This document shows positions 16,806 through 63,215 of a DNA stretch of 64,000 nt, in pieces. Source of the stretch: a marine actinobacterium MedAcidi-G2B. GTDB taxonomy: Bacteria > Actinomycetota > Acidimicrobiia > Acidimicrobiales > MedAcidi-G1. Positions within the stretch are counted from its first letter, which is position 1; each line of letters starts with the position of its first letter. Where the stretch lies: the NCBI GenBank assembly GCA_000817115.1, contig JUEO01000001.1:1-64000 (forward strand). The letters run 5' to 3'. The notes beneath the pieces were generated by a model. It ran no database searches. It was not told the origin of the DNA and saw nothing but the letters and a program-made list of their open reading frames with translations. A program made the translations under genes and the position numbers.

Positions 16806-17699
16806 GTGGTGGTGATGTCGGGTCGAAGTTTACCATTCTTAAATGAGCAGATAGTTGGGTATATCGCCTTAACTAAGCCTCGAATAATTGAACTTCTTCT
16901 TATAACTACTGTTCCGCCAATGTTCGTTGCCGCAGGTGCAGTACCAGGAGCATGGTTGATGATTGCAACTGTGGTTGGGGGGACTTTCGCGGCAGGTGGA
17001 GCAAACGCAATAAATATGTTTATAGATCGCGATATCGATCAACTTATGGAACGCACGAAGAGTCGTCCGCTAGTGACTGGTGTGATATCGCCTAAAAATG
17101 CTTTAATTTTTGCTCTTACTCTAGAAGTCATTGCTTTTATTTGGTTATGGCAATTCGTTAATTTTCTTAGTGCTGTACTTGCGATTTCTGCCACTTTGTT
17201 TTACGTGTTTATCTATTCGCTTTGGTTAAAAAGAACTTCTTCTTTGAACATAGTTATAGGTGGTGCTGCAGGAGCTGTTCCTGTTTTAGTTGGTTGGGCT
17301 GCTGTTACTAATTCACTGAATTGGTCTCCACTAATACTTTTCTTAATCATATTCTTCTGGACGCCTCCGCATTCTTGGGCTTTGATGATTAAATATCGAG
17401 ATGATTACTCGAATGCATCAGTGCCGATGCTTCCTTCAGTGGAAAGCCTTTCTGCAGTTGCGGATCGAATCATTTTGTACACAATTGTACAAATTGCGCT
17501 TACGATCGTTTTTGCTTTTGTAGCAGATATGGGCGTCTTTTATCTTGTTTCAGCAATTGTTCTTGGAGCGATATTTGGTGCTCTTACGTTGCCAGTTAAA
17601 AGAGATCTGAGCGAACGTTCAGCTATGCGTCTCTTCTCATTTTCCATTGTTTATATCACCCTACTTTTTGGGGCCATAACACTGGATGTGGTCATTTAA
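16806..17699 (+). CDS. ctaB: Protoheme IX farnesyltransferase (heme O synthase)
   Basis: Adds a farnesyl group to heme B, giving heme O, the substrate of CtaA. This is a polytopic UbiA-family enzyme: GYIALTKPRIIELLLITTVPPMF at the start, the first prenyl-diphosphate/Mg motif NMFIDRDIDQLMERTKSRPL near 80, and the second region PPHSWALMIKYRDDYSNASVPMLP near 200. At 297 residues it is normal. The start is uncertain among GTG 16806, 16809, 16812 and ATG 16815. A weak, half-conserved Rex-like sequence lies at 16785-16802. Confidence 0.95.
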   Translation: MVVMSGRSLPFLNEQIVGYIALTKPRIIELLLITTVPPMFVAAGAVPGAWLMIATVVGGTFAAGGANAINMFIDRDIDQLMERTKSRPLVTGVISPKNALIFALTLEVIAFIWLWQFVNFLSAVLAISATLFYVFIYSLWLKRTSSLNIVIGGAAGAVPVLVGWAAVTNSLNWSPLILFLIIFFWTPPHSWALMIKYRDDYSNASVPMLPSVESLSAVADRIILYTIVQIALTIVFAFVADMGVFYLVSAIVLGAIFGALTLPVKRDLSERSAMRLFSFSIVYITLLFGAITLDVVI

Positions 17700-17862: not shown

Positions 17863-17880
17863 TCGTGAAGTGTTTCACGA
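17863..17880. promoter_or_regulatory. Rex-operator-like palindrome upstream of the oxidase operon
   Basis: TCGTGAAGTGTTTCACGA is a perfect 7-4-7 dyad. It has the spacing of the actinobacterial Rex operator (TTGTGAA-n4-TTCACAA) and differs from it only at the second and the symmetric second-last base. It ends 53 bp before the first gene of the operon (17934), where a repressor could block transcription. A Rex protein is encoded in this window at 49898-50545. Confidence 0.6.
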
Positions 17881-17933: not shown

Positions 17934-19445
17934 ATGAAGAACGAATCCACAGTTGTTGAACGAATTGTTACAACTACCGAATCAGGGACCCTTTCGCGCT
18001 ACTGGATGGTCTCTGCACTAGTCGGCTTATTGTTCAGTTCAGTTGCAGGATTATTAGTCAGCCTTGAACGTATTGATCTATCTTCGGCAAGTATTTTTTC
18101 AACTGCCGATGACGTATTTCAATTTTGGACAGCCCACCGAGTAGCGCTAGTTCTCATCGCTGTTCTTCCCCTAATGGTTGGTTTAGCAACAGCAATAGTG
18201 CCTAGACAAGTAGGGGCATCACGGCTTGTTTTCCCAAAAATGAGTGCGTTTAGTTTCTGGGTCTGGTTATTTGGGGCATTAATCATCATTACTGGTTTTC
18301 TTGCGAATGGTGGGGTAGGAACTCCAGAAGCTACTAGTGAGACTCAATCTGTTGCGTTAACGCTTGTAGGCGTGCTTTTAACAATAATTGGACTTTGTGG
18401 GGCCTCAACCAGTGTCTTGACAACGATTGTTGCAGGTCGAGTTTCAGGCATTTCTTTACTCAACATTCCAGCATTTAGTTGGTCTGTATTAGTAGCAGGG
18501 ACTATGTGGCTAGCCACTTTGCCAGTTCTCGCTGCTAACACGGTACTTGTTTATGTAGATATGAGAGGGAGGGCGCCGGTTAATTTCGGGGGTGAAGCAG
18601 TTGTTTGGGAGCAGTTATCTTGGGCATTTACACACCCACAGGTTTATTTATGGGTGCTGCCGCTATTAGGAATTGTTGCTGAAATTGTTTCTGCTGCATT
18701 TAAAAATAAAATGTCAAACCCCCTCTTATTCACTGCTATTGGCCTAACAGGTTTTGCTGGGTTTGGGGCCTATGCCCAAACCTATTTCGATATTGGCACT
18801 CCAGTCTTTGAAGAATCTTTTTCAATCATTCAAGCATTTATCGCTATTCCTGCAGTCCTTCTTGTTGTTGCTTTTATTTCTCCAAAAATCAAAGATGTCA
18901 AAGGTTTTGATAAACAAACAACCATTCCGACAGTTTTAGCGACTTTATCTATAGTTCTTCTTCTACATGGCGTAGTTGTGGGTGCAGTACACGTAATTGG
19001 ACCGCTTGAACTCGCAACAAAATCAACGGTCTCAGCTCAGATAGTTCTTACTTTGGGTGCCGGTGTGTTGGCGGGTATGGCCGCCTTCTCATGGTGGGGA
19101 GAGCTTTTGATTGGTAAATCTATTTCCCAGAGAAAAATTTTGATTTCAGGTCTAATCTTCCATTTCGGAGTGGGCATATTTGCCGTAGCAGACTTCTTAG
19201 TTGGCTTTACAGGACAGAATGATTTCACTGGTGTATCCGAATTCGCTGCTGGCACGGATAATTCAAGTTGGGTTGAAACTCTTAACATCATCTCATTTAT
19301 TGGCTCCCTTTTGATTCTTTTGGGAGTTATTGCAGCCATAGCTACAAGTGTTCAAAATGCTCTTTCAAAAACTCCTGCTAGTGGAAACCCTTGGGGTGCA
19401 GACACACTTGAGTGGGAATCAAAAGAAAAAGAAGAGGTCGCTTAA
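17934..19445 (+). CDS. Degenerate cytochrome oxidase subunit I paralogue (COX1-like)
   Basis: A 503-residue, 12-helix protein that aligns with COX1, including TAHRVALVLIAVLPLMVGLATAIVPRQVGA (helix II), HPQVYLWVLPLLGIVAE (helix VI) and the C-terminal NPWGADTLEWE tag. His68 (helix II) and His234/Tyr238 (helix VI) are kept. The other metal ligands are not: the CuB pair HH of helix VII is Gln282-Thr283, the helix X heme histidines are Ser367 and Gln369, the K-channel lysine is absent, and HPEVY is HPQVY. It therefore cannot bind the normal heme a, a3 and CuB set. It is intact, not a pseudogene. It heads the operon before the true oxidase genes, with a Rex-like site upstream. A structural, assembly or altered-cofactor role is inferred. 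Confidence 0.8.
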   Translation: MKNESTVVERIVTTTESGTLSRYWMVSALVGLLFSSVAGLLVSLERIDLSSASIFSTADDVFQFWTAHRVALVLIAVLPLMVGLATAIVPRQVGASRLVFPKMSAFSFWVWLFGALIIITGFLANGGVGTPEATSETQSVALTLVGVLLTIIGLCGASTSVLTTIVAGRVSGISLLNIPAFSWSVLVAGTMWLATLPVLAANTVLVYVDMRGRAPVNFGGEAVVWEQLSWAFTHPQVYLWVLPLLGIVAEIVSAAFKNKMSNPLLFTAIGLTGFAGFGAYAQTYFDIGTPVFEESFSIIQAFIAIPAVLLVVAFISPKIKDVKGFDKQTTIPTVLATLSIVLLLHGVVVGAVHVIGPLELATKSTVSAQIVLTLGAGVLAGMAAFSWWGELLIGKSISQRKILISGLIFHFGVGIFAVADFLVGFTGQNDFTGVSEFAAGTDNSSWVETLNIISFIGSLLILLGVIAAIATSVQNALSKTPASGNPWGADTLEWESKEKEEVA

Positions 19446-20026
19446 TGGCTACTGTTCTTCCACCCGCACCTTTAAATCGTCCTAGAACATTGATGGTTGG
19501 GACAGCATTCATTACTTCGGCTGCACTCATGTTCTTTGGATGCTTATTCTCAATCTATTTCAGCATCAGATCTGACACAATGGCTTGGGGTATGGAATGG
19601 TTTCCAGAAAATGCTATTGAGCTTGTTCCTGGTGGGATGAATATGGCAACCCTGTCAATATCCGTGGCCACTATGGGATGGGCGGTCTATGCAGTAAAGA
19701 ACGATGATCGGGTACATGCTTATCTTGCGCTTATCCTTACATCGTTAATGGGTGTTGCGATGATTAACCAAACCGTGTTTTATTACATGGACATTGGTTT
19801 ACCTATTGATCACAGTGAAGCGGCACTCCTCCTATATGTAATAACTGGAGCCCACTTAGTAATGGTTGGAATTGGAGTTATTTGGTTGGGGCTACTCCTG
19901 CTAAGAGCTTTCGGAGGACAAGACACAAGTCGCCACCGTGACTTAGTTTCTGCAGTATCCATTTATTGGTATTCAACAGTCTTCATTTACATTTTTATTT
20001 GGCTATTTATCTACATCGGGAAATAG
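19445..20026 (+). CDS. Degenerate cytochrome oxidase subunit III paralogue (COX3-like)
   Basis: A five-helix membrane protein of 193 residues. It aligns loosely with the true CtaE at 23973-24554: GAHLVMVGIGVIWLG for GFHGVHVSLGIVMIM, and SIYWYSTVFIYIFIWLFIYIG for GLYWHFVDVVWIIIFTVIYLV. The lipid-site glutamate region (LGSECLLFG) and the helix histidines of COX3 are changed. It starts at ATG 19445, overlapping the previous TAA by one base, so the two degenerate subunits are tightly coupled. This is an inference by paralogue comparison; a search against heme-copper oxidase subunit III profiles would test it. Confidence 0.65.
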   Translation: MATVLPPAPLNRPRTLMVGTAFITSAALMFFGCLFSIYFSIRSDTMAWGMEWFPENAIELVPGGMNMATLSISVATMGWAVYAVKNDDRVHAYLALILTSLMGVAMINQTVFYYMDIGLPIDHSEAALLLYVITGAHLVMVGIGVIWLGLLLLRAFGGQDTSRHRDLVSAVSIYWYSTVFIYIFIWLFIYIGK

Positions 20027-20036
20027 GACGTTCACT

Positions 20037-20828
20037 ATGCTGACAACTGGTTTTAAGCTTTGGTTCGGTCTACTTGTTGCTACTTTTACAGCGGCAGTTT
20101 TTGTCGGATATACAACCGGTGGAACTGAAACTGGCCCTTTGACTCTTGGATGGAAAGGCGCTGTAGGAAATCACATCGCTTACGGCATTCTTATGATGGC
20201 AGCCACGACTTCAGGACTGCTAGCCATATTGTCTCAATCTTTCCGTGATGCTGATGCTGAAGCTGCAGCAGAAATACTTGAAGTAGATATAGACAAAGTC
20301 CCTGAAGCACAAATATCCACCGGATCGTCACCATGGCCGTTATTTACTGCGTTAGGGGTAGTAACGATGGCGGTTGGGCTAGTTGCACATCCATTTGTAT
20401 TCGGAACAGGTCTTATCATCTCATTAGTCATTGCAGTCGAGTGGACAATGACAAATTGGTCAGAAAGAGCAACTGGAGATTCTGAAAAGAATCGTGAATT
20501 GAAAGAAGGGCTACTACGTCCAATAGAAATTCCTGTTCTTGGACTTGTCGGTATCGGTGTGATAGTCGTGGCAGTATCAAGAATCTTATTGGCCGCATCA
20601 GTTCTAGGTGCCGTTTGGATTGCAACTGTCGTAGGAACCATAATTTTCCTCACGGCTTACTTCATTAGTAAGCGACCATCTATTCCAAGGGGAGTAGTTC
20701 AAGGCATTCTGGCTGTTGGATTTATAGCGGTTATTGTTAGCGGTATATTCGCAGCAATTAACGGTGAGCGCGACTTCCACCATGTTGGCGGAGAACATGG
20801 AGATTCCCATATGGAGGAAGACCATTGA
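20037..20828 (+). CDS. Unrecognised membrane protein of the oxidase operon
   Basis: 263 residues with about six membrane segments. I do not recognise a family. Residues 1-70 hold two helices, residues 70-95 an acidic loop (DADAEAAAEILEVDIDKVPEAQ), then SPWPLFTALGVVTMAVGLVAHPFVF, which resembles both the actinobacterial oxidase subunit IV start and the CtaD C-terminal segment (SPSYWPLIFAIGLPFLGLGLIF). Further helices follow and the protein ends in a His/Asp/Glu-rich tail (HHVGGEHGDSHMEEDH). Placed between the degenerate COX1/COX3 pair and ctaC, whose TTG start overlaps its TGA, it is probably an accessory oxidase subunit or assembly factor. Confidence 0.6.
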   Translation: MLTTGFKLWFGLLVATFTAAVFVGYTTGGTETGPLTLGWKGAVGNHIAYGILMMAATTSGLLAILSQSFRDADAEAAAEILEVDIDKVPEAQISTGSSPWPLFTALGVVTMAVGLVAHPFVFGTGLIISLVIAVEWTMTNWSERATGDSEKNRELKEGLLRPIEIPVLGLVGIGVIVVAVSRILLAASVLGAVWIATVVGTIIFLTAYFISKRPSIPRGVVQGILAVGFIAVIVSGIFAAINGERDFHHVGGEHGDSHMEEDH

Positions 20829-22027
20829 TCACTAAAATTATTAAAAAGACTTGGTTGGCTTTATTCACCTCTGCATTGCTCTTAGTTACTGGATGCGCCT
20901 CAGGCGCTGAGCTTGACACTCTTCAACCTCAAGGACCAATAGCTCGAGAAATAGACAATCTATTAGATCCAGTTTTGATCGTTGCATATGTTGTTTTTTT
21001 CCTAGTGTTTGGCGCAACAATCTTTATTTGGTGGAAGTTCCGTGATCGTCACGAAGACGAAGAATTTCCAACTCAGGTTCATGGAAATACCAAACTAGAA
21101 ATACTTTGGACCATTATTCCAACTTTAATTCTCGCTGTTGTTTCGGTATTCACGCTTATTACGCTGTCTTCAATAAATAGCACTGACACAAACGAAGTGA
21201 TGATTACCGTTGAAGAAGAATCAGTACTTTGGGAACCGGAAGTTGTGGTTATAGGGCAACAGTGGTGGTGGGAGTTCCGATACTACTTTGATGGTTTAGA
21301 TGGAGTTGATTTGAGTGATGCTCGTAATCTTCCTCCAGCAGATATTGTTACTGCCGGTCAACTAGTCATGCCTGCTGGACAGGAAATAGAACTTTCTATA
21401 ACAAGTCGAGATGTTATCCATAGCTTCTGGATTCCTGCATTAAATGGTAAACGAGATGCTGCTCCAGGAAGAGTGCATCCATGGAAATTAGAGGCAGACG
21501 AACCTGGTGTTTACTTTGGCCAATGTACAGAATTCTGTGGGCTGTCTCACTCCCGAATGCGGATGCAGGCAATTGCGCTCGAACCAGAAGATTTCCAAAT
21601 CTGGGTTGACGAGCAATTAACTGATCAAGATTCAGATTTAATAACCAATGAAGCCGTATCGCGAGGGCTAACAGTTTTTGAAAACCAATGCGCTAGATGT
21701 CACGTAGTGAATGGGGTGAACGATGAGACAAGTATTGGCGCAGACCTTGTTTCTAATGCAGCTCCAAATCTGACTCACTTTATGAGCCGAACCACCTATG
21801 CAGGAGGTATTTTTAACCTCTACGAACCAGACGGCACTATTGATAGAACTCAGCTGGAAGCATGGCTAAGAAATGCTCCAGCAGAAAAACCTGCATATGC
21901 CGAAGGTAGACGAGGCATGCCTGCTCTAGGACTAAGTGAAGATGAAATTGATGATGTCGTTGCTTACCTAGAAACCCTCGGCACAATACCAAGTTCGTTC
22001 ATTATCCAAGCCACGGAGGTCGAATAA
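20825..22027 (+). CDS. ctaC: Cytochrome c oxidase subunit II with fused cytochrome c
   Basis: Accepts electrons and passes them to CtaD. It is a lipoprotein (LLLVTGC, Cys24) with two membrane helices, then a cupredoxin domain with all CuA ligands: His199, Cys234, Glu236, Cys238, His242, Met245 (CTEFCGLSHSRM). Residues 275-390 form a class I cytochrome c: Cys289-Ala-Arg-Cys292-His293 and axial Met365 (GMPALG). This is a caa3-type arrangement, unlike typical actinobacterial aa3 oxidases that take electrons from a diheme QcrC. Translation starts at TTG 20825, in a TTGA overlap with the upstream gene. Confidence 0.95.
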   Translation: MITKIIKKTWLALFTSALLLVTGCASGAELDTLQPQGPIAREIDNLLDPVLIVAYVVFFLVFGATIFIWWKFRDRHEDEEFPTQVHGNTKLEILWTIIPTLILAVVSVFTLITLSSINSTDTNEVMITVEEESVLWEPEVVVIGQQWWWEFRYYFDGLDGVDLSDARNLPPADIVTAGQLVMPAGQEIELSITSRDVIHSFWIPALNGKRDAAPGRVHPWKLEADEPGVYFGQCTEFCGLSHSRMRMQAIALEPEDFQIWVDEQLTDQDSDLITNEAVSRGLTVFENQCARCHVVNGVNDETSIGADLVSNAAPNLTHFMSRTTYAGGIFNLYEPDGTIDRTQLEAWLRNAPAEKPAYAEGRRGMPALGLSEDEIDDVVAYLETLGTIPSSFIIQATEVE

Positions 22028-23980
22028 ATGACCGACACCATGTCTGAAGAAACTCCAACCGAAGAACAACGCCCACTGGGTGTCTATACCCGCCCCAAAG
22101 GCGGTAATGGATGGCGAGATTGGGTCACCACCGTAGACCATAAGAAAATCGGCATTCTTTATGGAGCCGCAGCTCTGTTCTTCTTCATAATTGGCGGTAT
22201 TGAAGCACTTCTTATACGCCTTCAACTCGCAACACCAAATGGCACAGTTCTTGGTGCAGAGATGTATAACCAAGTCTTTACTATGCATGGCATAACAATG
22301 ATTTTCTTAGCTGCTATGCCACTAGCTGCAGCTTTTGCGAATTACCTCATCCCACTACAAATAGGCGCAAGAGATGTTGCTTTCCCCCGACTTAATGCAA
22401 TGAGCTTCTGGGTATTTCTTGCTGGAGGAATCTTTATTAATCTTTCATGGCTGCTTGGAGGAGCCCCCGATGGTGGATGGTTTGGGTATGCCCCAAATAG
22501 TGGAATCGTTTTTTCACCTAGCGTTGGAATGGATTTTTACGCTATCGGACTTCAAATAACAGGTATCGCATCGTTAGTGTCAGCAATAAACCTGACTGTA
22601 ACCATCCTAAACATGCGTGCACCTGGCATGACACTCTTTAAAATGCCGGTGTTTACTTGGATGCTTTTTGTCGTTCAGTTGTTGCTCGTTTTCGCAATGC
22701 CAGTAATAGCTGTAGCGCTTTTCCTTTTAATGTTTAGCCGTCAATTTGGAGCAAATTTTTTCAACACCGAAATGGGAGCAGACCCTCTTCTTTGGCAACA
22801 CTTATTCTGGATTTTCGGCCACCCAGAGGTATATATCTTGATCCTTCCTTCATTTGGAATTATTTCTGAAGTAATTCCAACGTTTAGTCGTAAGCCAATT
22901 TTTGGTTATGATTTCATGGTTTTCTCGGGAATCGCTATCGGCTTTATGGGGTGGGGTGTATGGGCTCACCATATGTTTGCTTCGGGTATAGGCCCACTAT
23001 CTGTTGCCGCTTTCTCAATCTCAACAATGTTTATCGCTGTACCTACGGGAGTAAAAATACTTAATTGGATAGCAACCATGTGGGGAGGACGTGTCAAATT
23101 CTCTGCACCGATGCTCTTCTCTGTTGGTGTTATCAGCATGTTTACTATCGGTGGTCTTTCTGGTGTAACTCACGCACTTTCACCCGCTGACACTCAGCAG
23201 ACAGACACCTATTACGTCGTTGCTCACTTCCATTATGTAATTTTTGGTGGAATCATTTTTGGTCTTTTCGCTGGCCTTTATTTTTGGTGGCCAAAAGTAT
23301 TTGGGCACATGCTTGATGAAAAAATGGGAAAAATTAATTTCTGGGTGATGTTAGTTGGATTCAATATGACCTTTGGACCCATGCACGTTCTGGGATTACA
23401 AGGTATGTCCAGACGCATAGATACTTATAGCCCAGGATTTGGTTTTGAAGCTTGGAATATGGTCGCGACAATCGGGTCTTTCATCATTGCATTAAGTGTC
23501 TTAATTTTCTTGATCAATGTTGTTGTTTCAGTGAAACGAGCAAAAGGCCAACCACCATGCCCACCCGATCCATGGGATGCTCGAAGTCTTGAATGGATAA
23601 CCCCTAATCCAACTCCGGAACACAATTTTGATGAGATCCCCACCGTAGAAAGCCTTGATGAATTTTGGCATCGCAAATGGGGTACAGATGACGAAGGACA
23701 AATCGTTCGAGTCGCTACAGCTGAAGAGGTTTGTCAAGATGGCACAGCAACAGGTGTTCACTTACCCTCACCATCGTATTGGCCACTTATTTTTGCAATA
23801 GGACTTCCATTCCTTGGCTTAGGCCTAATTTTCAATCTTTGGTTAACGCTTCCAGGAGCAATACTCATTGTTGTGTCTCTGTACGCATGGATCTTCGAGC
23901 CAGTGGATGATCCAGATGGGCCACACGGAGAACATCACAGCGATAAAGAAGAAGTATCTCAGGAGGCTTCAGATGTCTGA
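22028..23980 (+). CDS. ctaD: Cytochrome c oxidase subunit I
   Basis: The catalytic subunit that reduces O2 to water and pumps protons. All ligands are present: His87 (heme a), His265/Tyr269 (CuB, cross-link; GHPEVY with the A1-type glutamate), His314-His315 (CuB), His400 (a3), His402 (a), and the K-channel Lys343. After the family C-terminus DPWDARSLEW (near 515) the protein continues with a linker and two more membrane helices (SPSYWPLIFAIGLPF...), then PHGEHHSDKEE. The 650-residue length reflects this fused extra segment, which may replace a small subunit. It begins directly after the ctaC stop. Confidence 0.96.
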   Translation: MTDTMSEETPTEEQRPLGVYTRPKGGNGWRDWVTTVDHKKIGILYGAAALFFFIIGGIEALLIRLQLATPNGTVLGAEMYNQVFTMHGITMIFLAAMPLAAAFANYLIPLQIGARDVAFPRLNAMSFWVFLAGGIFINLSWLLGGAPDGGWFGYAPNSGIVFSPSVGMDFYAIGLQITGIASLVSAINLTVTILNMRAPGMTLFKMPVFTWMLFVVQLLLVFAMPVIAVALFLLMFSRQFGANFFNTEMGADPLLWQHLFWIFGHPEVYILILPSFGIISEVIPTFSRKPIFGYDFMVFSGIAIGFMGWGVWAHHMFASGIGPLSVAAFSISTMFIAVPTGVKILNWIATMWGGRVKFSAPMLFSVGVISMFTIGGLSGVTHALSPADTQQTDTYYVVAHFHYVIFGGIIFGLFAGLYFWWPKVFGHMLDEKMGKINFWVMLVGFNMTFGPMHVLGLQGMSRRIDTYSPGFGFEAWNMVATIGSFIIALSVLIFLINVVVSVKRAKGQPPCPPDPWDARSLEWITPNPTPEHNFDEIPTVESLDEFWHRKWGTDDEGQIVRVATAEEVCQDGTATGVHLPSPSYWPLIFAIGLPFLGLGLIFNLWLTLPGAILIVVSLYAWIFEPVDDPDGPHGEHHSDKEEVSQEASDV

Positions 23981-24554
23981 AGAAACAACCACAGGATTAA
24001 GCCATAACAAACTGGCAATGTGGGTATTCCTAGGATCAGAATGCCTACTCTTTGGTGCCCTTATCTCTACATACCTTCTCTACCGAAACAAGTTCTATGA
24101 CGGCCCTGCCCCCGGGGACATTTTTGACATTCCATTTACTTCCGTTAGTTCGTTTGTTCTGCTTATGAGTTCACTAACGATGGTTCTTGCCCTTTCAGCT
24201 CTGCAAAAAGGAGACATTCGGAATAACCGTCTCTGGTTATTAACCACGGCTCTACTGGGTGCGGTATTTATCGGAGGCCAAGTCTATGAGTTCACTACCT
24301 TCATACGAGAAGGATTGGGATACACCACAAGCCCCTTCTCTTCAGCATTTTTCACTCTCACAGGTTTCCATGGAGTTCACGTAAGCCTCGGTATTGTAAT
24401 GATCATGTCGTTACTGATTTCTTCTTACCGAGGAAAATTAACAAAGAAAAATACTGAAACAGTAGAAATTATTGGCCTTTATTGGCATTTTGTTGATGTA
24501 GTTTGGATCATCATCTTTACAGTCATCTACCTTGTACCTAACCCAACAAGTTAA
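23973..24554 (+). CDS. ctaE: Cytochrome c oxidase subunit III
   Basis: A five-helix subunit (193 residues) that stabilises proton pumping by subunit I. It carries the family glutamate (LGSECLLFGALISTYLLYR), SAFFTLTGFHGVHVSLGIVMI and the end YWHFVDVVWIIIFTVIYLVP. The start ATG 23973 lies within the last codons of ctaD and has a perfect AGGAGG site 6 bases upstream (23961). A longer frame back to 23868 lies entirely inside ctaD. Confidence 0.94.
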   Translation: MSEETTTGLSHNKLAMWVFLGSECLLFGALISTYLLYRNKFYDGPAPGDIFDIPFTSVSSFVLLMSSLTMVLALSALQKGDIRNNRLWLLTTALLGAVFIGGQVYEFTTFIREGLGYTTSPFSSAFFTLTGFHGVHVSLGIVMIMSLLISSYRGKLTKKNTETVEIIGLYWHFVDVVWIIIFTVIYLVPNPTS

Positions 24555-24565
24555 TAGGAACAACC

Positions 24566-24901
24566 ATGAGTACTAGCGAAACTAGAACTGAAGATCACGA
24601 AGATCACGAAGATCACGAAGATCACGAGCACCCTTCAGACCAAAAGTACATGCAGATAGCTCTACTGTTGGCAGTAATTACCGCCGCAGAAGTTGCAACT
24701 TATTTTGTTCACATCGGTCCAGCCCTTATCCCCACACTCATGGTGATGATGGTGGTTAAGTTCTTCATCGTTGCAGCTTGGTTCATGCATTTACGTTTTG
24801 ATAGCAAGATGTTTACACGATTCTTTGTAGCTGGAATAGTGCTAGCAGTATCTGTTTATTTCATATTCCTCACGGTTTTTGAATTCTGGACAAAAGGCTA
24901 A
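24566..24901 (+). CDS. Cytochrome c oxidase subunit IV family protein
   Basis: 111 residues. The N-terminal 23 residues contain four DHE repeats (a 9-bp DNA repeat at 24594-24629), followed by three membrane helices that match the small prokaryotic COX4 family: YMQIALLLAVITAAEVATYFVH, LMVMMVVKFFIVAAWFMHLRFD, FFVAGIVLAVSVYFIFLTVFEF. It completes the oxidase subunit set. The His/Asp/Glu-rich start is unusual and may hold metal or form a flexible tail on the cytoplasmic side. Confidence 0.85.
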   Translation: MSTSETRTEDHEDHEDHEDHEHPSDQKYMQIALLLAVITAAEVATYFVHIGPALIPTLMVMMVVKFFIVAAWFMHLRFDSKMFTRFFVAGIVLAVSVYFIFLTVFEFWTKG

Positions 24902-24945: not shown

Positions 24946-25776
24946 ATGGACTTGTATGCACTAGCGAGCGACCCTTGGAGATGGCAACCTCATCCAGAAG
25001 TCTGGTTACTGGTTCTGTCAGTTATTTTCTTCGGTTTCTGGGCAAAACGTATCGGGCCAAAAGTTTTGCCCACGGGGACACCAATCGCGACGAGAGCACA
25101 GAAAGTTTCATTTATAGCAGCAGTGTTTTTACTTTATGTGGCAGCTGATTGGCCGGTGCATGATATAGCTGAAGAACATCTCTACTTTGTGCACATGATT
25201 CAACATCTTGTGATAACTCTTATAGCTCCTCCCTTATTTCTTCTCGCACTCCCTGCTTGGCTGGCACGGTTAGTAATTCTTGAAGGAGGTTACGGATCAA
25301 GAATTATTCGACGACTTAGTCACCCCATAACTGCCGCACTAATTTTTAATGGTTTAAGTGCACTCACACACTGGACAGGTGTAGTTCAGTGGTCTTATGA
25401 CAGCGGCATATTTCACTACTTTGTTCACTTAATTCTTTTTATTTCTGGACTACTTATGTGGATGCCCGTTGTCTCGCCATTAAAAGAGTTACGAATATCC
25501 CCACCAGCACAAATGCTGTACTTATTTTTGAACTCAGTTATTCCAACAATCCCATCTGCTTGGTTAACTTTTGCTGAAGGAACTGTTTATAAGCACTATG
25601 ACGATGGATTTGAATTGTGGGGAATTTCTGTCGTCACTGATCAACAAACAGCAGGTGCCATAATGAAAATCATTGGGGGCTTTTATCTTTGGGGAATAAT
25701 AGTCGTAAAGTTTTTCCGCTACACAAGTAAAGCCCGCGAGGAAAATCAACACCTGCGACCGGCCGCAGGACGCTAA
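24946..25776 (+). CDS. ctaG: Cytochrome c oxidase assembly protein, caa3-type CtaG
   Basis: A polytopic membrane protein of 276 residues in the caa3_CtaG family, needed for oxidase maturation in Bacillus and probably involved in copper insertion. Seven helices are visible with histidine-bearing motifs: YFVHMIQHLVITLIAPPLFLLALPAWLARL, LTHWTGVVQWSYDSGIFHYFVHLILFISGLLMWMPV and TDQQTAGAIMKIIGGFYLWG. It ends the oxidase operon; serS starts 10 bp later. A small GC hairpin without a T-run lies in the 44-bp gap before it. Confidence 0.9.
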   Translation: MDLYALASDPWRWQPHPEVWLLVLSVIFFGFWAKRIGPKVLPTGTPIATRAQKVSFIAAVFLLYVAADWPVHDIAEEHLYFVHMIQHLVITLIAPPLFLLALPAWLARLVILEGGYGSRIIRRLSHPITAALIFNGLSALTHWTGVVQWSYDSGIFHYFVHLILFISGLLMWMPVVSPLKELRISPPAQMLYLFLNSVIPTIPSAWLTFAEGTVYKHYDDGFELWGISVVTDQQTAGAIMKIIGGFYLWGIIVVKFFRYTSKAREENQHLRPAAGR

Positions 25777-49897: not shown

Positions 49898-50545
49898 GTG
49901 GATGAGGTCTCAACTCCGTTAGTGCCGGAAGCTACTGTTGCTCGCTTACCGGTTTACCTCAGAGGACTTGCTGCTTTAGCAAACGATGGAATAGAAACCG
50001 TCTCGTCTGAACAATTAGCGGCTATTGCAGGAGTCAATGCGGAAAATGTTCGTAAAGATTTGTCAATTCTTGGCTCTTATGGAAAACGCGGAGTCGGCTA
50101 TGAAGTTGATTTTCTTATTGAACAAATTAGACGTGTGTTAGGTGCCGGAGACTCAGTATCAGTTGTAATCGTTGGAGCTGGAAACCTTGGAAGAGCCTTA
50201 ACTTATTATGGAGGCTTCGCATCTGGAGGTTTCCCGATTAAAGGACTAGTGGATTCTTCTCCAGAAGTGATAGGTCAAGAAGTGGCTGGTATAACTGTTG
50301 AACCATTTGAAAAATTAAAAGATGTAGTTCAGAAAAATAGTTGCACACTCGGAATAATCGCCACTCCCGCTACAGCTGCACAGTTGGTTGCAGATCAATT
50401 ATTTGATGCCGGAATCTACTCCATTTTAAACTTTGCCCCGGGTCTTGTTGCTGTCCCAGAATCCGTAACTCTTCGGAAAGTAGATCTCGCCACTGAACTT
50501 CATATCCTCGCTTTTCATGAACAACAAAGAGAAAGAAATGAATAG
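49898..50545 (+). CDS. rex: Redox-sensing transcriptional repressor Rex
   Basis: 215 residues. Rex senses the NADH/NAD+ ratio and represses respiratory genes when NADH is low. The N-terminal winged helix is RLPVYLRGLAALANDGIETVSSEQLAAIAGVNAENVRKDLSILGSYGKRGVGYEV, and the Rossmann half is VVIVGAGNLGRALTYYGGF and LGIIATPATAAQLVADQL, ending with the domain-swapped helix LHILAFHEQQRE. It starts at GTG 49898. The rex-hemA-hemC-hemD order matches Streptomyces. Candidate operators lie at 17863-17880 and 59780-59797. Confidence 0.96.
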   Translation: MDEVSTPLVPEATVARLPVYLRGLAALANDGIETVSSEQLAAIAGVNAENVRKDLSILGSYGKRGVGYEVDFLIEQIRRVLGAGDSVSVVIVGAGNLGRALTYYGGFASGGFPIKGLVDSSPEVIGQEVAGITVEPFEKLKDVVQKNSCTLGIIATPATAAQLVADQLFDAGIYSILNFAPGLVAVPESVTLRKVDLATELHILAFHEQQRERNE

Positions 50546-50710
50546 TAAATAGTGACTTTTTTCTCTTTCTACCAAGTTGTTAAACGGGCTCTCAATCCGT
50601 AATGATAGGTGTATAACAAGAGTTTTAAATAAAAGAATTAAGTTCCTACAAAGCCAAAGTGCAGAAATTGATGTGTTGGGATTGTCATCAGTAACTAAGG
50701 AGACCGGACA
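50546..50710 (+). promoter_or_regulatory. hemA leader with possible promoter
   Basis: A 165-bp gap between rex and hemA. TATAAC at 50612-50617 is a good -10 hexamer, with only a weak -35 (CTCTCA at 50589-50594). No Rex-like dyad was found here. The leader of about 90 bases to the GTG of hemA contains no hairpin terminator. Confidence 0.3.
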
Positions 50711-51970
50711 GTGTCTGTTGTTGTCGTAGGTCTAAATCATAAAAATGTTCCGCTTGAAATTCTGGAACGAATGACTATTCAAAAGACTGACTTACCTAAA
50801 GCACTTGCTGATCTCACTTCAAGAGAACATGTGACGGAAGCAGTTGTGTTATCCACGTGCAACAGAATCGAAGTGTACGCATTCGCGGAGAAATTTCATG
50901 GAGGGTATGAAGATATTCGTAATTTCCTTGCAGAAATAACACATGTAGCTCCTGAAGAATTCTCTGACTACTTAACTGGTCTATATGATGTTGACGCAGT
51001 AAGACATCTGTTTGCAGTCGCATCGGGACTAGATTCTGTAGTCCTTGGAGAAAATGAAATCCTCGGTCAAGTTCGATTGGCGTGGGAAGCGGCAGCCGAA
51101 GAGTCAACTGTTGGCCCAGTTCTGAATCCAATGTTCCGACACGCACTTCAGGTAGGGAAACGTGTTAGAACCGAAACAGAAATTTCTCAAAAAACAACGT
51201 CAGTTTCTCAAGCTGCAGTAGCAATGGCCGAGCAACGTCTCGGCGGACTAAGCGATCGACGGGTTCTCGTCGTTGGAACGGGGAAAATGGGAGAAGGATT
51301 GGCTCGCGCCTTAAATGGCGGAGGAGTTTCAGAGATTTTGGTTGCAAATAGAACATGGGAAAAAGCTGTTCAAGTCGCAGATCGACTTCAGGGTAAACCT
51401 GTTGAACTTAACGAACTTCCAAAGTATCTTGCCGAAATTGACGTGTTGCTAACTTCAACTGGGGCTTCTTCGGTCATCCTTGAGCATGGAGATCTTAATG
51501 ATGTTATGCGAGAAAGATCAGGTCGAGAACTCCTTGTTGTTGATATAGCTGTGCCGAGAGATGTAGATCCCGCTGCGGGAGAAATCGCTGGAGTGACTTT
51601 GCTGGATATGGATGACTTACGGGCATTTGCCGAAGAAGGAATCCAAGCACGACGTAGAGAGATTACTGGAGTTCAGGCGATTATTGATGATGAACTTGAT
51701 AGTTATGCAGATGAATCAACAGCTCGCTCCGTGGCTCCTCTAGTAGCAGGGCTTCGTGACCGAGCTACAGGAATAACTGAAAGTGAATTTTCTCGCTTTG
51801 CTTCGAAATTAGAAGGAATGGATGAGAATCAACGCAAAGTCGTGGAGAGCCTCGTTACTGGTGTAGTAGGAAAACTTCTACATGAACCTACAGTTCGTAT
51901 GAAAGATGCTGCTGGAACCGCTCGAGGTGAACGTTTAGCTGAAGCATTGCGCGACTTGTTTAACCTATAG
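50711..51970 (+). CDS. hemA: Glutamyl-tRNA reductase
   Basis: Reduces glutamyl-tRNA to glutamate-1-semialdehyde with NADPH, the first committed step of the C5 heme pathway. The catalytic cysteine is Cys50 in VVLSTCNRIEVYA. FAVASGLDSVVLGENEILGQVR and the NADPH site RRVLVVGTGKMGEGLARALNG follow, then the dimerisation helices. At 419 residues it is full length. It starts at GTG 50711 with AAGGAG upstream. It heads the hem run. Confidence 0.96.
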   Translation: MSVVVVGLNHKNVPLEILERMTIQKTDLPKALADLTSREHVTEAVVLSTCNRIEVYAFAEKFHGGYEDIRNFLAEITHVAPEEFSDYLTGLYDVDAVRHLFAVASGLDSVVLGENEILGQVRLAWEAAAEESTVGPVLNPMFRHALQVGKRVRTETEISQKTTSVSQAAVAMAEQRLGGLSDRRVLVVGTGKMGEGLARALNGGGVSEILVANRTWEKAVQVADRLQGKPVELNELPKYLAEIDVLLTSTGASSVILEHGDLNDVMRERSGRELLVVDIAVPRDVDPAAGEIAGVTLLDMDDLRAFAEEGIQARRREITGVQAIIDDELDSYADESTARSVAPLVAGLRDRATGITESEFSRFASKLEGMDENQRKVVESLVTGVVGKLLHEPTVRMKDAAGTARGERLAEALRDLFNL

Positions 51971-51980
51971 CATCAAACCT

Positions 51981-52877
51981 ATGAAGATCAGGGCCGCTAC
52001 TCGAGGCAGCTCCCTGGCTCTGTGGCAAACAAAGAAATCTATTTCTTTACTAGTCGACGCGTTCCCTGAATTAGAAGTTGAGACGGTTGTTGTAGAAACT
52101 ACAGGCGATCGAGATCGTGAAACACCACTAAATGAATTGGGAGGTCAAGGAATCTTTGTGAAAGAAGTGCAGATAGCGGTTCTTGAAGGAAGAGCAGATT
52201 TCGCAGTTCATTCTGCAAAAGACTTGCCAGCGCTATCACCTGCTGGACTGCAAATAATTGCATTTCCAGAGAGAGCAGATCCGAGAGATGCACTCATTGG
52301 GAATCGGTGGTTAGATCTTCCTCCAAAAGCACGTATTGCTACTGGTTCTATTCGCCGTCAAACTCATTTGAAATATTTACGACCGGACCTGTGTTTTGAG
52401 GAGTTACGAGGAAACATTGAGACACGGTTAAAGAAGGCAGAACAGTATGACGGAATAGTTATGGCCAAGGCAGCTTTGGACAGATTGAACTTGAAACCAC
52501 AAATTGTTGATGTATTACACCCATCGGTGCTTCTTCCTCAAGTAGGGCAAGGAGCACTCGCTATCGAATGTCGTGTAGATGAATCAGAAATTTCAGTACT
52601 CTTATCAGAAATCAATCATTTAGATACTTACCGTTCTGTAATGGCAGAAAGGGCATTTTTATCTGAACTAGGAACAGGCTGTGACCTCCCAATAGCAGCG
52701 CATGCCATTACTAAAGATGATGATGTTTTGTTAACTGCAGCACTTTCTTCATATGACGGGAAAACGCTGCTTCGGACTACAGAAACAGGTAAAGACGGTT
52801 TAGCTCTCGGGAAAAAAGTCGCACAGTCTCTGCTTGACATTCAAGACGGCAGACAACTCATGGAAAAAAATGAATAG
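51981..52877 (+). CDS. hemC: Porphobilinogen deaminase (hydroxymethylbilane synthase)
   Basis: Joins four porphobilinogens into hydroxymethylbilane. The N-terminus IRAATRGSSLALWQT, VKEVQIAVLEGRADFAVHSAKDLP, RIATGSIRRQTHL, GNIETRLKK and the cofactor cysteine segment ELGTGCDLPIAAHA are all in place. 298 residues. It begins 10 bp after hemA and overlaps hemD by 8 bp. Confidence 0.96.
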   Translation: MKIRAATRGSSLALWQTKKSISLLVDAFPELEVETVVVETTGDRDRETPLNELGGQGIFVKEVQIAVLEGRADFAVHSAKDLPALSPAGLQIIAFPERADPRDALIGNRWLDLPPKARIATGSIRRQTHLKYLRPDLCFEELRGNIETRLKKAEQYDGIVMAKAALDRLNLKPQIVDVLHPSVLLPQVGQGALAIECRVDESEISVLLSEINHLDTYRSVMAERAFLSELGTGCDLPIAAHAITKDDDVLLTAALSSYDGKTLLRTTETGKDGLALGKKVAQSLLDIQDGRQLMEKNE

Positions 52878-53607
52878 TTTTTTATCTGGGCGAACAGTGG
52901 TTGTAACACGTGCAACAGAACAAGCAAGAACTTTGTCTGAATACTTGACTAGAGAAGGGGCTACCGTAATAGAACTACCGATGGTAGAAATCCAAGATCC
53001 AGAAGATGGAGGAGCTGCTTTAGGAAAAGCGGTTCATGATCTTAAAAACTATGACTGGGTTGTAGTTACCTCTCCAAACGCAGCTAGTCGATTAATTGAA
53101 GTTCACGATAAGGTCGTTCCTCCTGTTCCTTTTGCGGTGATTGGAACTCAAACCGCTGAAGTTTTGGTAAAAGCTGGATACCAAGTAAAACTCATACCAA
53201 AGAAAGCAGTTGGCGAATCCCTCCTGTCTGAATTTACTCCACCCAAAAATGATGAAGCGAGAATACTTTTTATTCGTGCTGAAAAAGTTCGACCACTACT
53301 AGCGAATGGATTACGAAACCTTGGATGGAGAGTGGAAGAGGTAATTGCCTACAGAAACGTTCAACCACAAGTCGATGAAGAAAAATTGAAACAAGCCCAA
53401 GAAGCAGATGCAGTTATTTTCGCTTCAACTTCAGCCGTTGAGCGCTACACCGCATTGAATAAGGAATCGACTCCGAAAACAGCTTTGTGTATTGGGCCAA
53501 TTACGGCAAAAGCTGCGAGTGAAAACGGTTATAAAGACATTTATCAGGCTGACCCATACTCAGTAGAAGGACTTATATTGGCCGCGCGAGAGTGGGCAGC
53601 GAACTAA
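52870..53607 (+). CDS. hemD: Uroporphyrinogen-III synthase
   Basis: Cyclises hydroxymethylbilane with inversion of ring D. The family is divergent but recognisable: LSGRTVVVTRATEQARTLSEYLTREGATVIELPMVEI, WVVVTSPNAASRL, FAVIGTQTAEVL, ILFIRAEKVRPLL, DAVIFASTSAVERY and ALCIGPITAKAASENGY. The start ATG 52870 overlaps hemC by 8 bp, giving 245 residues. A TTG at 52834 is less likely. Confidence 0.93.
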   Translation: MNSFLSGRTVVVTRATEQARTLSEYLTREGATVIELPMVEIQDPEDGGAALGKAVHDLKNYDWVVVTSPNAASRLIEVHDKVVPPVPFAVIGTQTAEVLVKAGYQVKLIPKKAVGESLLSEFTPPKNDEARILFIRAEKVRPLLANGLRNLGWRVEEVIAYRNVQPQVDEEKLKQAQEADAVIFASTSAVERYTALNKESTPKTALCIGPITAKAASENGYKDIYQADPYSVEGLILAAREWAAN

Positions 53608-53626
53608 CTGCCTAGAATTATTTTCT

Positions 53627-54604
53627 ATGATAGAACGTCGTCCTCGCCGTTTACGTAGAACGGAAGCTCTTCGCCGACTTGTGGCTGAAACACAATTGTC
53701 GGTTAATGACTTAGTCGCGCCTCTATTTGTACGAGAAGGGATCACAGAACCCCAACCGGTCCATTCCTTACCAGGAGTTTTCCAGCACACCCGAAGCAGC
53801 CTTCTAGAAGAAGTAAAAAAACTCAGAGACAGAGAGATTCCAGGCCTCGTACTATTTGGGATTCCTGAGAAAAAAGACTCAACTGGTTCAGAAGCATGGA
53901 ATCCTGAAGGAATAGTTCAACAAGCGCTTGGTGACTTAAGAAACGAATTCGGCGATGAGATGGTTCTTATCGCCGATCTCTGTGTTGATGAATACACCGA
54001 TCATGGTCATTGTGGAATCGTAAAAAATAATGGAGCGGTGGATAATGATGCGACGCTGGAGTTATATCAAAATATAGCTATTGCTCAAGCAGAAGCTGGG
54101 GCACATGTGACCGCACCTTCAGGGATGATGGACGGCCAAGTGAAAGCAATACGTACCGCGCTAGATAGCAAGGGTTATGAGGACATTTCAATTCTCGCTT
54201 ATGCCGCGAAATATGCTTCAGCTCTTTATGGTCCATTTCGAGACGCAGTAGATGTAGAAATTGCTGATGGTGGAGACAGAAAGGGCTATCAGCAAGATCC
54301 ATCAAATAGTCGAGAAGCAGTTACGGAAGTCCTTCTTGATATTTCGGAAGGAGCAGACATGGTGATGGTGAAGCCCGCTCTTGCTTACCTTGACGTTATT
54401 TCACAAATCCGATCAGAAGTTAGTGTTCCTTTAGCCGCTTACCACGTGAGTGGAGAATACGCCATGGTAGAAGCAGCGGCAGCTAACGGATGGATAGATG
54501 GCGAAAGTGTTGGGATGGAACATCTTCTATCAATAAAAAGAGCCGGTGCTGATTTCATACTCACCTATTTAGCTTGTCGAGCTGCTGAAAATCTTCAAAA
54601 ATGA
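53627..54604 (+). CDS. hemB: Porphobilinogen synthase (delta-aminolevulinate dehydratase)
   Basis: Condenses two aminolevulinates to porphobilinogen. The Schiff-base lysines lie in YAAKYASALYGPFRDA and MVKPALAYLDV. The metal site reads DLCVDEYTDHGHCG: Cys119, Asp121 and Cys129. Zinc enzymes usually have three cysteines and the Mg-type have aspartates, so this is an intermediate pattern. 325 residues. Ends in an ATGA overlap with hemL. Confidence 0.96.
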   Translation: MIERRPRRLRRTEALRRLVAETQLSVNDLVAPLFVREGITEPQPVHSLPGVFQHTRSSLLEEVKKLRDREIPGLVLFGIPEKKDSTGSEAWNPEGIVQQALGDLRNEFGDEMVLIADLCVDEYTDHGHCGIVKNNGAVDNDATLELYQNIAIAQAEAGAHVTAPSGMMDGQVKAIRTALDSKGYEDISILAYAAKYASALYGPFRDAVDVEIADGGDRKGYQQDPSNSREAVTEVLLDISEGADMVMVKPALAYLDVISQIRSEVSVPLAAYHVSGEYAMVEAAAANGWIDGESVGMEHLLSIKRAGADFILTYLACRAAENLQK

Positions 54605-59831: not shown

Positions 59832-60287
59832 ATGGTTGCGTTTGTCGTATCCATCATTGTTACCGCATTGTTGGCTCTCGGGATTAATTGGTATACAAAA
59901 CGCTGTCCAGCAGACAAAGTCTTTACTTGGGGCGAATCTATGCTTTTTGCTACCTACGTATTTTTCATCTTTTGGTGGATTTACGGAGTTGTTCCTCATC
60001 AATGGCTTGTTTGGGCAGACAGTGAACTTAACTGGCGCCCTGATCGATATATCACCGGACCAAAACTCTTTTGGACAGGCGAGCAAGGAGTAGTCGAGTG
60101 GGCATTACCTTTCACTACGACCTATCAACTGATTCGTGACTTCATCGCTGTCGGGATCTATATCGTGGCTTTAGGTGGAAATATAGCGATGTGGAGATCT
60201 TGGCAACAAAGAGGCCAAGAAAAGAACGAACCAGCACCAACCTCAGAATATGGAAGACCGTTAATTAAAGATGGAGTGGGATCATGA
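59832..60287 (+). CDS. Unrecognised membrane protein at the head of the bc operon
   Basis: 151 residues with three membrane helices (FVVSIIVTALLALGINWYT; SMLFATYVFFIFWWIYGVV; DFIAVGIYIVALGGNIAMW). A short loop with tryptophan-rich VVPHQWLVWADSELNWRP separates the second and third. I do not recognise the family. It overlaps the ferredoxin start by 4 bp (ATGA), so it is very likely part of the complex, perhaps anchoring the ferredoxin. GGGAG precedes ATG 59832. Confidence 0.65.
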   Translation: MVAFVVSIIVTALLALGINWYTKRCPADKVFTWGESMLFATYVFFIFWWIYGVVPHQWLVWADSELNWRPDRYITGPKLFWTGEQGVVEWALPFTTTYQLIRDFIAVGIYIVALGGNIAMWRSWQQRGQEKNEPAPTSEYGRPLIKDGVGS

Positions 60288-60700
60288 GCAGTGTCGATGC
60301 AAACCCAGACCACCCAAAGTTTATTGATGATTATGTTTTACGCGAAGTTGACGCGGATTGGTTACTCAAAGCAGTAAAACCTAAGCAATTTATTCACATT
60401 GACCAATCTGAATGCATTATGTGCGAAGGGTGTGTCGACATATGCCCATGGAAGTGCATTCACATGGTTAAGACTGAGGCAATTGCAGAGTCAATTGGGA
60501 CAGAAAAACCTGGTGATGATCCAAGCGACCATGTAATTTTTACTATTGATGATGATGCTTGTACACGATGTGCACTTTGTGTAGACCGTTGTCCAACAGG
60601 AGTTATTATTTTAGGTCGTGTTGGTGAACCTTCAGCCGAGGGAGATGCTCATCAACGCACAAATAGCCATGGATATGGCTATGGGATGAGACTGGCATAA
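60284..60700 (+). CDS. Two-cluster 4Fe-4S ferredoxin of the bc operon
   Basis: 138 residues. Two CX2CX2CX3C motifs: Cys44, 47, 50, 54 (CIMCEGCVDIC) and Cys93, 96, 99, 103 (CTRCALCVDRC). Each is followed by a proline in the usual way, and a further Cys58 lies after the first. A ferredoxin is not a normal bc1 or b6f subunit, yet its gene lies between the membrane protein and cytochrome b with tight spacing. It might feed or draw electrons at the quinone sites. Confidence 0.88.
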   Translation: MSSVDANPDHPKFIDDYVLREVDADWLLKAVKPKQFIHIDQSECIMCEGCVDICPWKCIHMVKTEAIAESIGTEKPGDDPSDHVIFTIDDDACTRCALCVDRCPTGVIILGRVGEPSAEGDAHQRTNSHGYGYGMRLA

Positions 60701-60743
60701 AGAAGAACTAAAAATTTATTAAGTGTAGGGAAAGAGTTAAAAG

Positions 60744-61532
60744 GTGAGCGAAGAAAACGGTAAAAAGCCTGCAGGGCAAGCGCTTCAAGAGCGGCTTGGT
60801 CAAGCAGGCGACCGCATGCAGGACTCCCAAGCTTGGGCATCGATTTTCCGCCCAGGATCTATTTTCCGCAAGGGATATAGCGATAGTCCAAGAAACAGGT
60901 CCTACGTGATCATGAATAGCGTCATGTATCACCTCCACCCAGTCAAAGTTAAGCGACATGCGGTAAAAGTTAGTTACACACTTTGCCTTGGTGGTCTTAG
61001 TTTCTTCTTGTTTATCCTCTTGACGGTTACAGGAATTTTCTTGATGTTCTTTTATCGACCTACAGCCGCACAGGCATGGGACGATATACAAATTCTTCAA
61101 ACCGCAGTTGGCTTTGGTCTATTGGTAAGAAATATGCATCGTTGGGCAGCTCACCTCATGGTTCTTACCGTTTTCTTACATATGGCAAGAGTTTTCTATC
61201 ACGGTGCCTACAAGCCACCAAGAGAATTCAACTGGGTTATTGGAGTTATGCTCTTGCAGTTAACTCTTCTACTTTCATTCACTGGATATCTTCTACCTTG
61301 GGATCAGTTAGCTCTTTGGGCAGTGACTGTGGGAACCAACATGATGGGATTTACTCCAGTTTTCGGGGAACAAGTCCGTTTCGTTTTACTAGGAGGCGTA
61401 GAAATCGGTACAGATACATTACTTCGATGGTATGTACTACACGTTTTGATGTTGCCCTTTGTAATCGTAATCTTCATGGCTATCCATTTCTGGCGCGTCC
61501 GTAAAGACGGCGGCATCTCAGGTCCGCTGTAG
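60744..61532 (+). CDS. Cytochrome b, b6-like N-terminal subunit
   Basis: 262 residues with four membrane helices. The heme ligands fit b6: RNMHRWAAHLMVLTVFLHMARVFYHG and LLRWYVLHVLMLPFVIVIFMAIHFWRVRKDGGISGPL, the latter almost the same as the end of chloroplast b6. In the first helix Cys81 (TLCLGGL) aligns with Cys35 of b6 (FYCLGGI), the covalent attachment point of heme c_i. It starts at GTG 60744. A split cytochrome b is unlike typical actinobacterial QcrB. Confidence 0.92.
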   Translation: MSEENGKKPAGQALQERLGQAGDRMQDSQAWASIFRPGSIFRKGYSDSPRNRSYVIMNSVMYHLHPVKVKRHAVKVSYTLCLGGLSFFLFILLTVTGIFLMFFYRPTAAQAWDDIQILQTAVGFGLLVRNMHRWAAHLMVLTVFLHMARVFYHGAYKPPREFNWVIGVMLLQLTLLLSFTGYLLPWDQLALWAVTVGTNMMGFTPVFGEQVRFVLLGGVEIGTDTLLRWYVLHVLMLPFVIVIFMAIHFWRVRKDGGISGPL

Positions 61533-61545
61533 GTAGGGGTATGAA

Positions 61546-62274: not shown

Positions 62275-62320
62275 GAACTGAACACATGCTTAATATTGAC
62301 TCAAGGACAAGGAGCTAACC

Positions 62321-63187: not shown

Positions 63188-63215
63188 TCGCTGTTAAGGA
63201 GAAGTTAGAAACCAA

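Follow-up and report, generated by a model that had tools for sequence, protein, structure and literature searches.

A conserved COX1 homologue without catalytic ligands accompanies the ctaC-ctaD-ctaE oxidase genes of Acidimicrobiales

Introduction

Few known catalytic proteins are as conserved as subunit I of the heme-copper oxidases, whose histidine ligands define the superfamily. Annotation pipelines label any PF00115 protein an oxidase. The window analysed here, which is the whole 64,000-nucleotide stretch of DNA from the marine actinobacterium MedAcidi-G2B, contains a COX1-like gene that has lost most of these ligands in the same operon as an intact oxidase. What is such a protein, and why is it there? 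A preliminary description regarded it and the COX3-like gene that follows as a conserved pseudo-oxidase, which could be an assembly scaffold, a decoy in a supercomplex or a new heme or quinone protein, and knew of no earlier account. Consistent with this, no described pseudo-COX1 was found in the literature that we searched, which was restricted to open-licence papers.

Results and discussion

Gene order of the locus

The COX1-like gene is here called pCOX1, the COX3-like gene pCOX3, and the gene of 263 residues behind them P263. The features of the locus are listed below by window position.

16806..17699, forward strand: ctaB, heme O synthase, preceding pCOX1 in nearly all loci
17863..17880, no strand assigned: Rex-like palindrome TCGTGAAGTGTTTCACGA, 5' of pCOX1 (genome motif search)
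17934..19445, forward strand: pCOX1, COX1 (subunit I) homologue without heme, 503 aa (PF00115, fold, ligand loss, dN/dS)
19445..20026, forward strand: pCOX3, COX3/CtaE homologue without the signature Glu and His, 193 aa from ATG (PF00510, alignment, dN/dS)
20037..20828, forward strand: P263, 263 aa, CtaF-like (subunit IV) N half plus three extra transmembrane helices (profile and fold matches)
20825..22027, forward strand: ctaC, subunit II, CuA domain with fused cytochrome c
22028..23980, forward strand: ctaD, catalytic subunit I, intact (no ligand or channel residue missing)
23973..24554, forward strand: ctaE, intact subunit III
24566..24901, forward strand: COX4_pro, prokaryotic COX4
24946..25776, forward strand: ctaG, caa3 assembly factor CtaG

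The coordinates first given for pCOX1 and pCOX3 held, as did their 1-nt overlap (TAATG at 19445). The statement that the pair lies directly before ctaC-ctaD-ctaE had to be corrected, as P263 intervenes. P263 and ctaC overlap by 4 nt, and the two start-stop overlaps suggest coupled synthesis. The ctaA gene is located upstream in the divergent orientation. pCOX1 and ctaD are the only COX1 proteins of the genome and no bd oxidase was recognisable in it, the assembly being 85% complete; ctaC is its single COX2. Genes of a bc complex were observed at 59832-63998 of the window, encoding a cytochrome b split in two proteins, a Rieske protein and cytochrome c domains, among which only cytochrome b is backed by a Pfam search.

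pCOX1 is a COX1 homologue that has lost its metal sites

pCOX1 matches PF00115 with an E value of 4e-43 over positions 22-459 and is 24% identical to the adjacent CtaD. Its AlphaFold2 model, built from a 33-row alignment (pLDDT 89, pTM 0.92), has M. smegmatis CtaD as the best VIA-align match (Z 39.2, 2.8 A over 472 residues). Both its sequence and its modelled fold mark pCOX1 as a true COX1 homologue, as had been proposed for the 503-residue protein. An unrelated membrane family, a match to which would have removed that proposal, is ruled out, the best match being COX1.

The helix VII His-His is replaced by Gln282-Thr283 in the window protein, exactly as first described. The helix X histidines are also lost. 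They align here with Gln369 and Val371, which differs from the Ser367 and Gln369 of the preliminary description; a gap in helix X makes the pairing ambiguous but the loss is unambiguous. Helix II His68 and helix VI His234 and Tyr238 remain, His234 being the only CuB histidine (helices VI and VII) and the helix II His the only heme a3/heme a histidine (helices II and X). Their presence had been noted correctly for the window, yet they are not conserved in the family. Among 52 homologues across Acidimicrobiales, on which the residue counts for pCOX1 are based, 22 keep His68 and 13 keep His234.

None of the 52 sequences has two or more of the three CuB histidines. The helix VII His-His is gone in every one (a single His is left in two sequences), and only a few still have the helix X histidines. 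The helix II/X low-spin heme His pair persists in 4/52, with the a3 His alongside in 2/52. The D-channel Asp, both Asn and the K-channel Lys are present in 0/52 pCOX1 proteins versus 70/70 ctaD sequences, in which every ligand and channel residue is kept. No conserved His, Cys or Met that might act as an alternative ligand was found in the membrane part of pCOX1, and on this ground heme retention in the window protein was rejected. A nitric-oxide-reductase-like FeB site was likewise rejected because the CuB position is without ligands.

Relative to ctaD, pCOX1 has kept most constraint in the cytoplasmic II-III loop (ratio 0.64), helix III (0.65), helix V (0.59) and the C-terminal tag (0.78). 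It has kept least in the helices lining the metal sites, VI-XI (0.32-0.40). The tag, TLEW, had been reported as a remaining DxLEW-type tag, and this held. Helices III and V are the ones turned towards subunit III in COX structures, a placement that applies to pCOX1 by analogy only. pCOX1 thus shares with A-family CtaD/COX1 the sequence family (PF00115), the 12-helix fold, the TLEW tag and an operon with ctaC-ctaD-ctaE, whereas it lacks the ligands of CuB, heme a3 and, in the crown lineages, heme a, as well as the D and K channels and a subunit II of its own.

pCOX3 resembles subunit III and P263, more weakly, subunit IV

pCOX3 matches PF00510 (E 1e-12) and shares 26% identity with CtaE. In the alignment YEF has lost its Glu and WHFVD its His/Asp, which are conserved transmembrane residues of ctaE, and the earlier reading that it had lost the corresponding glutamate and histidines held.

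The assignment of P263 rests on weaker matches. Its two best fold matches are the CtaF chains of M. smegmatis and C. glutamicum, both weak, and the fold search returned nothing significant beyond them. The resemblance to CtaF lies in the N half. In a profile search, mycobacterial CtaF chains were the best natural sequences, again weakly (E 0.01-0.06, with CtaF chains overall at 0.01-0.19), and PF12270 (CtaF) was matched in 3 of the 33 P263 members (best E 0.0013). The C half matches a free-standing protein of three helices and a cupredoxin (L176, L178, L181), which sits 3' of ctaG in other Acidimicrobiia and actinobacteria. P263 itself carries a C-terminal cupredoxin in L146, L163 and L164 (PF13473, E 3e-9 to 2e-11), with type-1 copper residues visible in the sequence, and not in L117; within the 33-member alignment a recognisable cupredoxin is confined to one member (L146).

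A further observation concerns family f2 (L119, L121, L124, L130, L131, L135, L136, L137), where the C-terminus of P263 adds an extracytoplasmic domain of about 110 residues. It gave no Pfam match in the member tested (L131), and may possibly be a degenerate cupredoxin.

Contact with QcrB is made in M. smegmatis by two subunits of complex IV, CtaE and CtaF, which mediate the link between complexes III and IV (PMC8361435). Since these subunits dock complex IV there, the module copies docking subunits together with subunit I. We read pCOX1, pCOX3 and P263 as a heme-free copy of the complex IV core, comprising subunits I, III and IV and no subunit II of its own. The bc-aa3 supercomplex of M. smegmatis and C. 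glutamicum (CtaC-F with QcrABC) is similar in that its CtaE and, by weak matches, its CtaF have homologues in the module, and bc genes are likewise present in the window. It differs in that Acidimicrobiales add a second, metal-free I-III-IV set, and in that P263 has three helices more than CtaF and, in deep lineages, a cupredoxin.

The module is under purifying selection and tied to one oxidase

The distribution of the module was derived from a class-wide search of 296 genomes and from 40 + 20 fetched regions. The order ctaB-pCOX1-pCOX3-P263-ctaC-ctaD-ctaE was found in about 16 families of the order Acidimicrobiales, so that the preliminary observation was right and also wider than stated, being order-wide. 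No full-length P263 was seen outside Acidimicrobiales in the search of 296 genomes. Thirteen close loci from named assemblies have identical gene order and identical losses. pCOX1 is full-length in the sampled loci, with one copy (L095) containing an internal TGA. dN/dS of pCOX1 is 0.06-0.12 in 10 pairs of close relatives; among close relatives the values are 0.02-0.06 for pCOX3, 0.06-0.09 for P263 and about 0.02 for ctaD. The tree length of pCOX1 is 21.8 versus 7.1 for ctaD, which corresponds to about threefold faster evolution.

We compared 78 genomes of the order. All 44 with the P263 module also carry a ctaD at least 60% identical to that of the window. A canonical ctaD is found in none of the 34 genomes without P263, where the best match reaches 49% and one genome has no ctaD match at all. 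This co-occurrence should be viewed with caution, as one operon deletion takes out everything and the 34 absences may reflect few events. The sampled genomes without the module use a ctaC-ctaD2 oxidase (L127, L138-L145). In other orders of the class ctaCDE is used with no pCOX1 beside it (L128, L129, L178, L180, L181), which indicates that pCOX1 is dispensable for a CtaCDE oxidase in general.

These data bear on the simplest alternative, that pCOX1 is a decaying duplicate of ctaD heading for loss. Its fast evolution and lost catalytic residues favour this explanation. Against it, the gene is full-length across about 16 families, is kept in a 1.44-Mb genome and groups away from ctaD. The preliminary description had named two results that would point to decay, namely homologues that retain the ligands and a dN/dS near 1. 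The ligands are not retained, 52/52 homologues being without the CuB site and the proton channels, and dN/dS is not near 1. Together, the loss in the homologues and the low dN/dS leave practically no room for decay, and the term 'conserved pseudo-oxidase' is supported. pCOX1 is conserved, is under purifying selection, is tied to one oxidase and, by ligand loss, is metal-free in most lineages.

pCOX1 probably groups with a second oxidase and appears to have lost its redox centres stepwise

In a tree with outgroups, pCOX1 forms a single clade (100/100), whose sister group is the Acidimicrobiia ctaD2 oxidase (100/99) and not the neighbouring canonical ctaD. Holding pCOX1 and ctaD together was rejected (AU p 0.004). 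The branches of pCOX1 are long, and the sister placement is supported, though not beyond doubt. With the same caution, the tree and the AU test disfavour an origin as a duplicate of the adjacent ctaD, and 'clear paralogue of ctaD', as the gene had been called, is loose wording for a protein placed nearer another oxidase lineage. That sister, the ctaC-ctaD2 oxidase, differs from pCOX1 in keeping all ligands, and occurs without the canonical operon or as a second oxidase.

Some deep lineages retain parts of the metal sites. The pCOX1 proteins of G079 and G138 (L163, L164) retain His in helix II, the two His of helix X, and Glu and Tyr in helix VI, with Arg in place of the CuB His and Ala-Gly in place of His-His. 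Those of G225 (L146) and G196 (L117) retain His in helix II and, in helix X, the His for heme a, with Gln or Thr in place of the a3 His. All four are basal within the pCOX1 group (L117 is basal in its crown), and in the ctaD tree L146, L163 and L164 are basal in the order as well. Since these lineages keep heme histidines and, in three of them, a blue-copper domain, the redox centres were likely lost stepwise, beginning with CuB, followed by heme a3 and finally by heme a and the blue copper, an order inferred from sequence alone. If the sister placement to ctaD2 is right, a second oxidase joined the operon and was then disarmed. A separate A-family oxidase with a blue-copper partner would have entered the cta operon, lost CuB, heme a3, and heme a with the blue copper, and remained as structure. 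With intermediate states (CuB gone, hemes and blue copper present) held by deep lineages, the order of loss is open to study.

The same lineages provide the support for a redox role, in which the module would go on carrying electrons or quinol by means of heme or some other cofactor, held in a different way. The low-spin heme His pair is present in L117, L146, L163 and L164, with the a3 His too in L163 and L164, and the blue-copper domain on P263 is intact in three deep lineages. However, the His pair is gone in the window and in almost all lineages, no conserved transmembrane His, Cys or Met replaces it, and the cupredoxin is absent or unrecognisable in most. We regard this role as unlikely; it may apply to the four deep lineages only. 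The heme protein among the roles first suggested is thus argued against in the crown lineages.

The role inferred to fit best is structural or docking

The folds, the order-wide loss of CuB, heme and channel residues, the purifying selection, the fixed place in the operon and the strict co-occurrence with ctaD are shown by sequence. What the module does is inferred, and no physical interaction has been shown. A role as structural or docking partner of CtaCDE is, in our judgement, as probable as not. It is suggested by the parts that are kept, namely the II-III loop, helices III and V, the TLEW tag and the CtaE and CtaF copies. pCOX1, pCOX3 and P263 would assemble into a single membrane module with a permanent attachment to the working CtaCDE oxidase, being either the inert half of an asymmetric complex or a docking piece to the bc complex. 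The range of roles raised previously is narrowed, and a structural or docking role fits best, without being shown. Non-catalytic homologues or fold-mates of a catalytic subunit that are kept as its partner include CydB of cytochrome bd and the alpha subunit of F-ATPase. The analogy differs in that no such subunit was found described for heme-copper oxidases in the open-licence literature searched.

The main competitor is an assembly factor, a possible explanation in which the pCOX1-pCOX3-P263 scaffold holds CtaC, CtaD or CtaE during heme and copper insertion and then leaves. In its favour, nearly all loci place the module after ctaB (heme O synthase) and before ctaC, with ctaG in the operon and ctaA divergent, and a homologue of the client could template folding. 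Branch rates of pCOX1 correlate with those of ctaB (rho 0.42). On the other hand, the tight translational coupling to pCOX3 and ctaC suggests equal amounts, a whole I-III-IV copy exceeds the needs of known assembly factors, and close relatives in other orders assemble ctaCDE without the module. The branch rates do not decide between roles. The correlation of pCOX1 with P263 (rho 0.38-0.52) is matched in strength by that with ctaB, and correlation with ctaC, ctaD and ctaE appears only with ctaB and serS as background and vanishes with other operon genes as background. The roughly threefold faster evolution of pCOX1 is also compatible with an assembly factor.

A transporter or channel derived from the COX1 fold, for example for copper, heme, O2 or lipid, was considered as well. 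The strong selection on pCOX1 speaks for it, and the COX1 fold has membrane-spanning pores that are empty once the hemes are lost. Against it, there is no conserved polar transmembrane motif beyond structural Gly, Pro and Trp and a few Arg and Asp, and the protein is always made with COX3 and CtaF homologues, which a transporter would not need. This explanation is unlikely, as is a redox or transport role when the two are taken jointly.

Whatever the role of pCOX1 may prove to be, selection across the order after ligand loss means that the fold alone is useful in respiration. Recognition of pCOX1 would correct oxidase counts in environmental genomes, and the protein offers a direct route to asking what a complex IV partner does without catalysis.

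A second family of ligand-less subunit I proteins

CcoN-like (cbb3-type) proteins that match PF00115 (E 6e-24 to 5e-42) and have lost all six ligands were observed in other orders of the class (21/21 examined). Their loci are L200-L219 and L179, for example L203:7906-9486, L201:7984-9714 and L211:7113-8519. In the loci checked, the neighbouring genes encode FixO-like proteins (L201, L203, L211) and CcoP-like cytochrome c (L201, L203, L205). The family also occurs in very small genomes of about 1 Mb. In G012 (L179:8090-10237, reverse strand), the ligand-less CcoN-like protein is fused to a three-helix cupredoxin and lies directly 5' of ctaC. We take this protein as an independent metal-free subunit I tied to ctaCDE. 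With the CcoN-like family as a whole, which is independent of pCOX1, metal-free subunit I is a repeated feature of the class.

A bolder reading can be formulated, which we consider rather more doubtful than not. Respiration in Acidimicrobiales would rely on an asymmetric complex IV, with a redox-dead I/III/IV copy as the obligate structural or docking partner of CtaCDE, and the class would have made subunit I metal-free at least twice, in the A-family pCOX1 and in the cbb3-type CcoN-like proteins.

A Rex-like site precedes pCOX1 in the closest relatives

The palindrome TCGTGAAGTGTTTCACGA ends 53 nt 5' of the pCOX1 start codon and is the sole exact match to TYGTGAANNNNTTCACRA in the 1.44-Mb genome; at one mismatch, 0.07 such sites are expected in the window. 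A rex gene, confirmed by Pfam, is found at 49898-50545. The palindrome fits a Rex site, an assignment inferred from sequence alone. Its arms are kept in L003-L006, with a varying centre (changed in L004 and L005), and it was not found in L007 or more distant loci. The shared Rex-like site of the preliminary description is thus present in the window and is local to the closest relatives; as an order-wide feature it is unsupported.

Two minor observations were also made. The rex gene is followed in one run (49898-54604) by hemA, hemC, a hemD-like gene and hemB; the run was assigned by reading, and Pfam backs rex only. Where the Rex-like site is missing, a hairpin-like GGTCTGA...TCAGACC is seen in the pCOX1 leader (L007:3656-3891, L010:2996-3275, L015:5638-5861).
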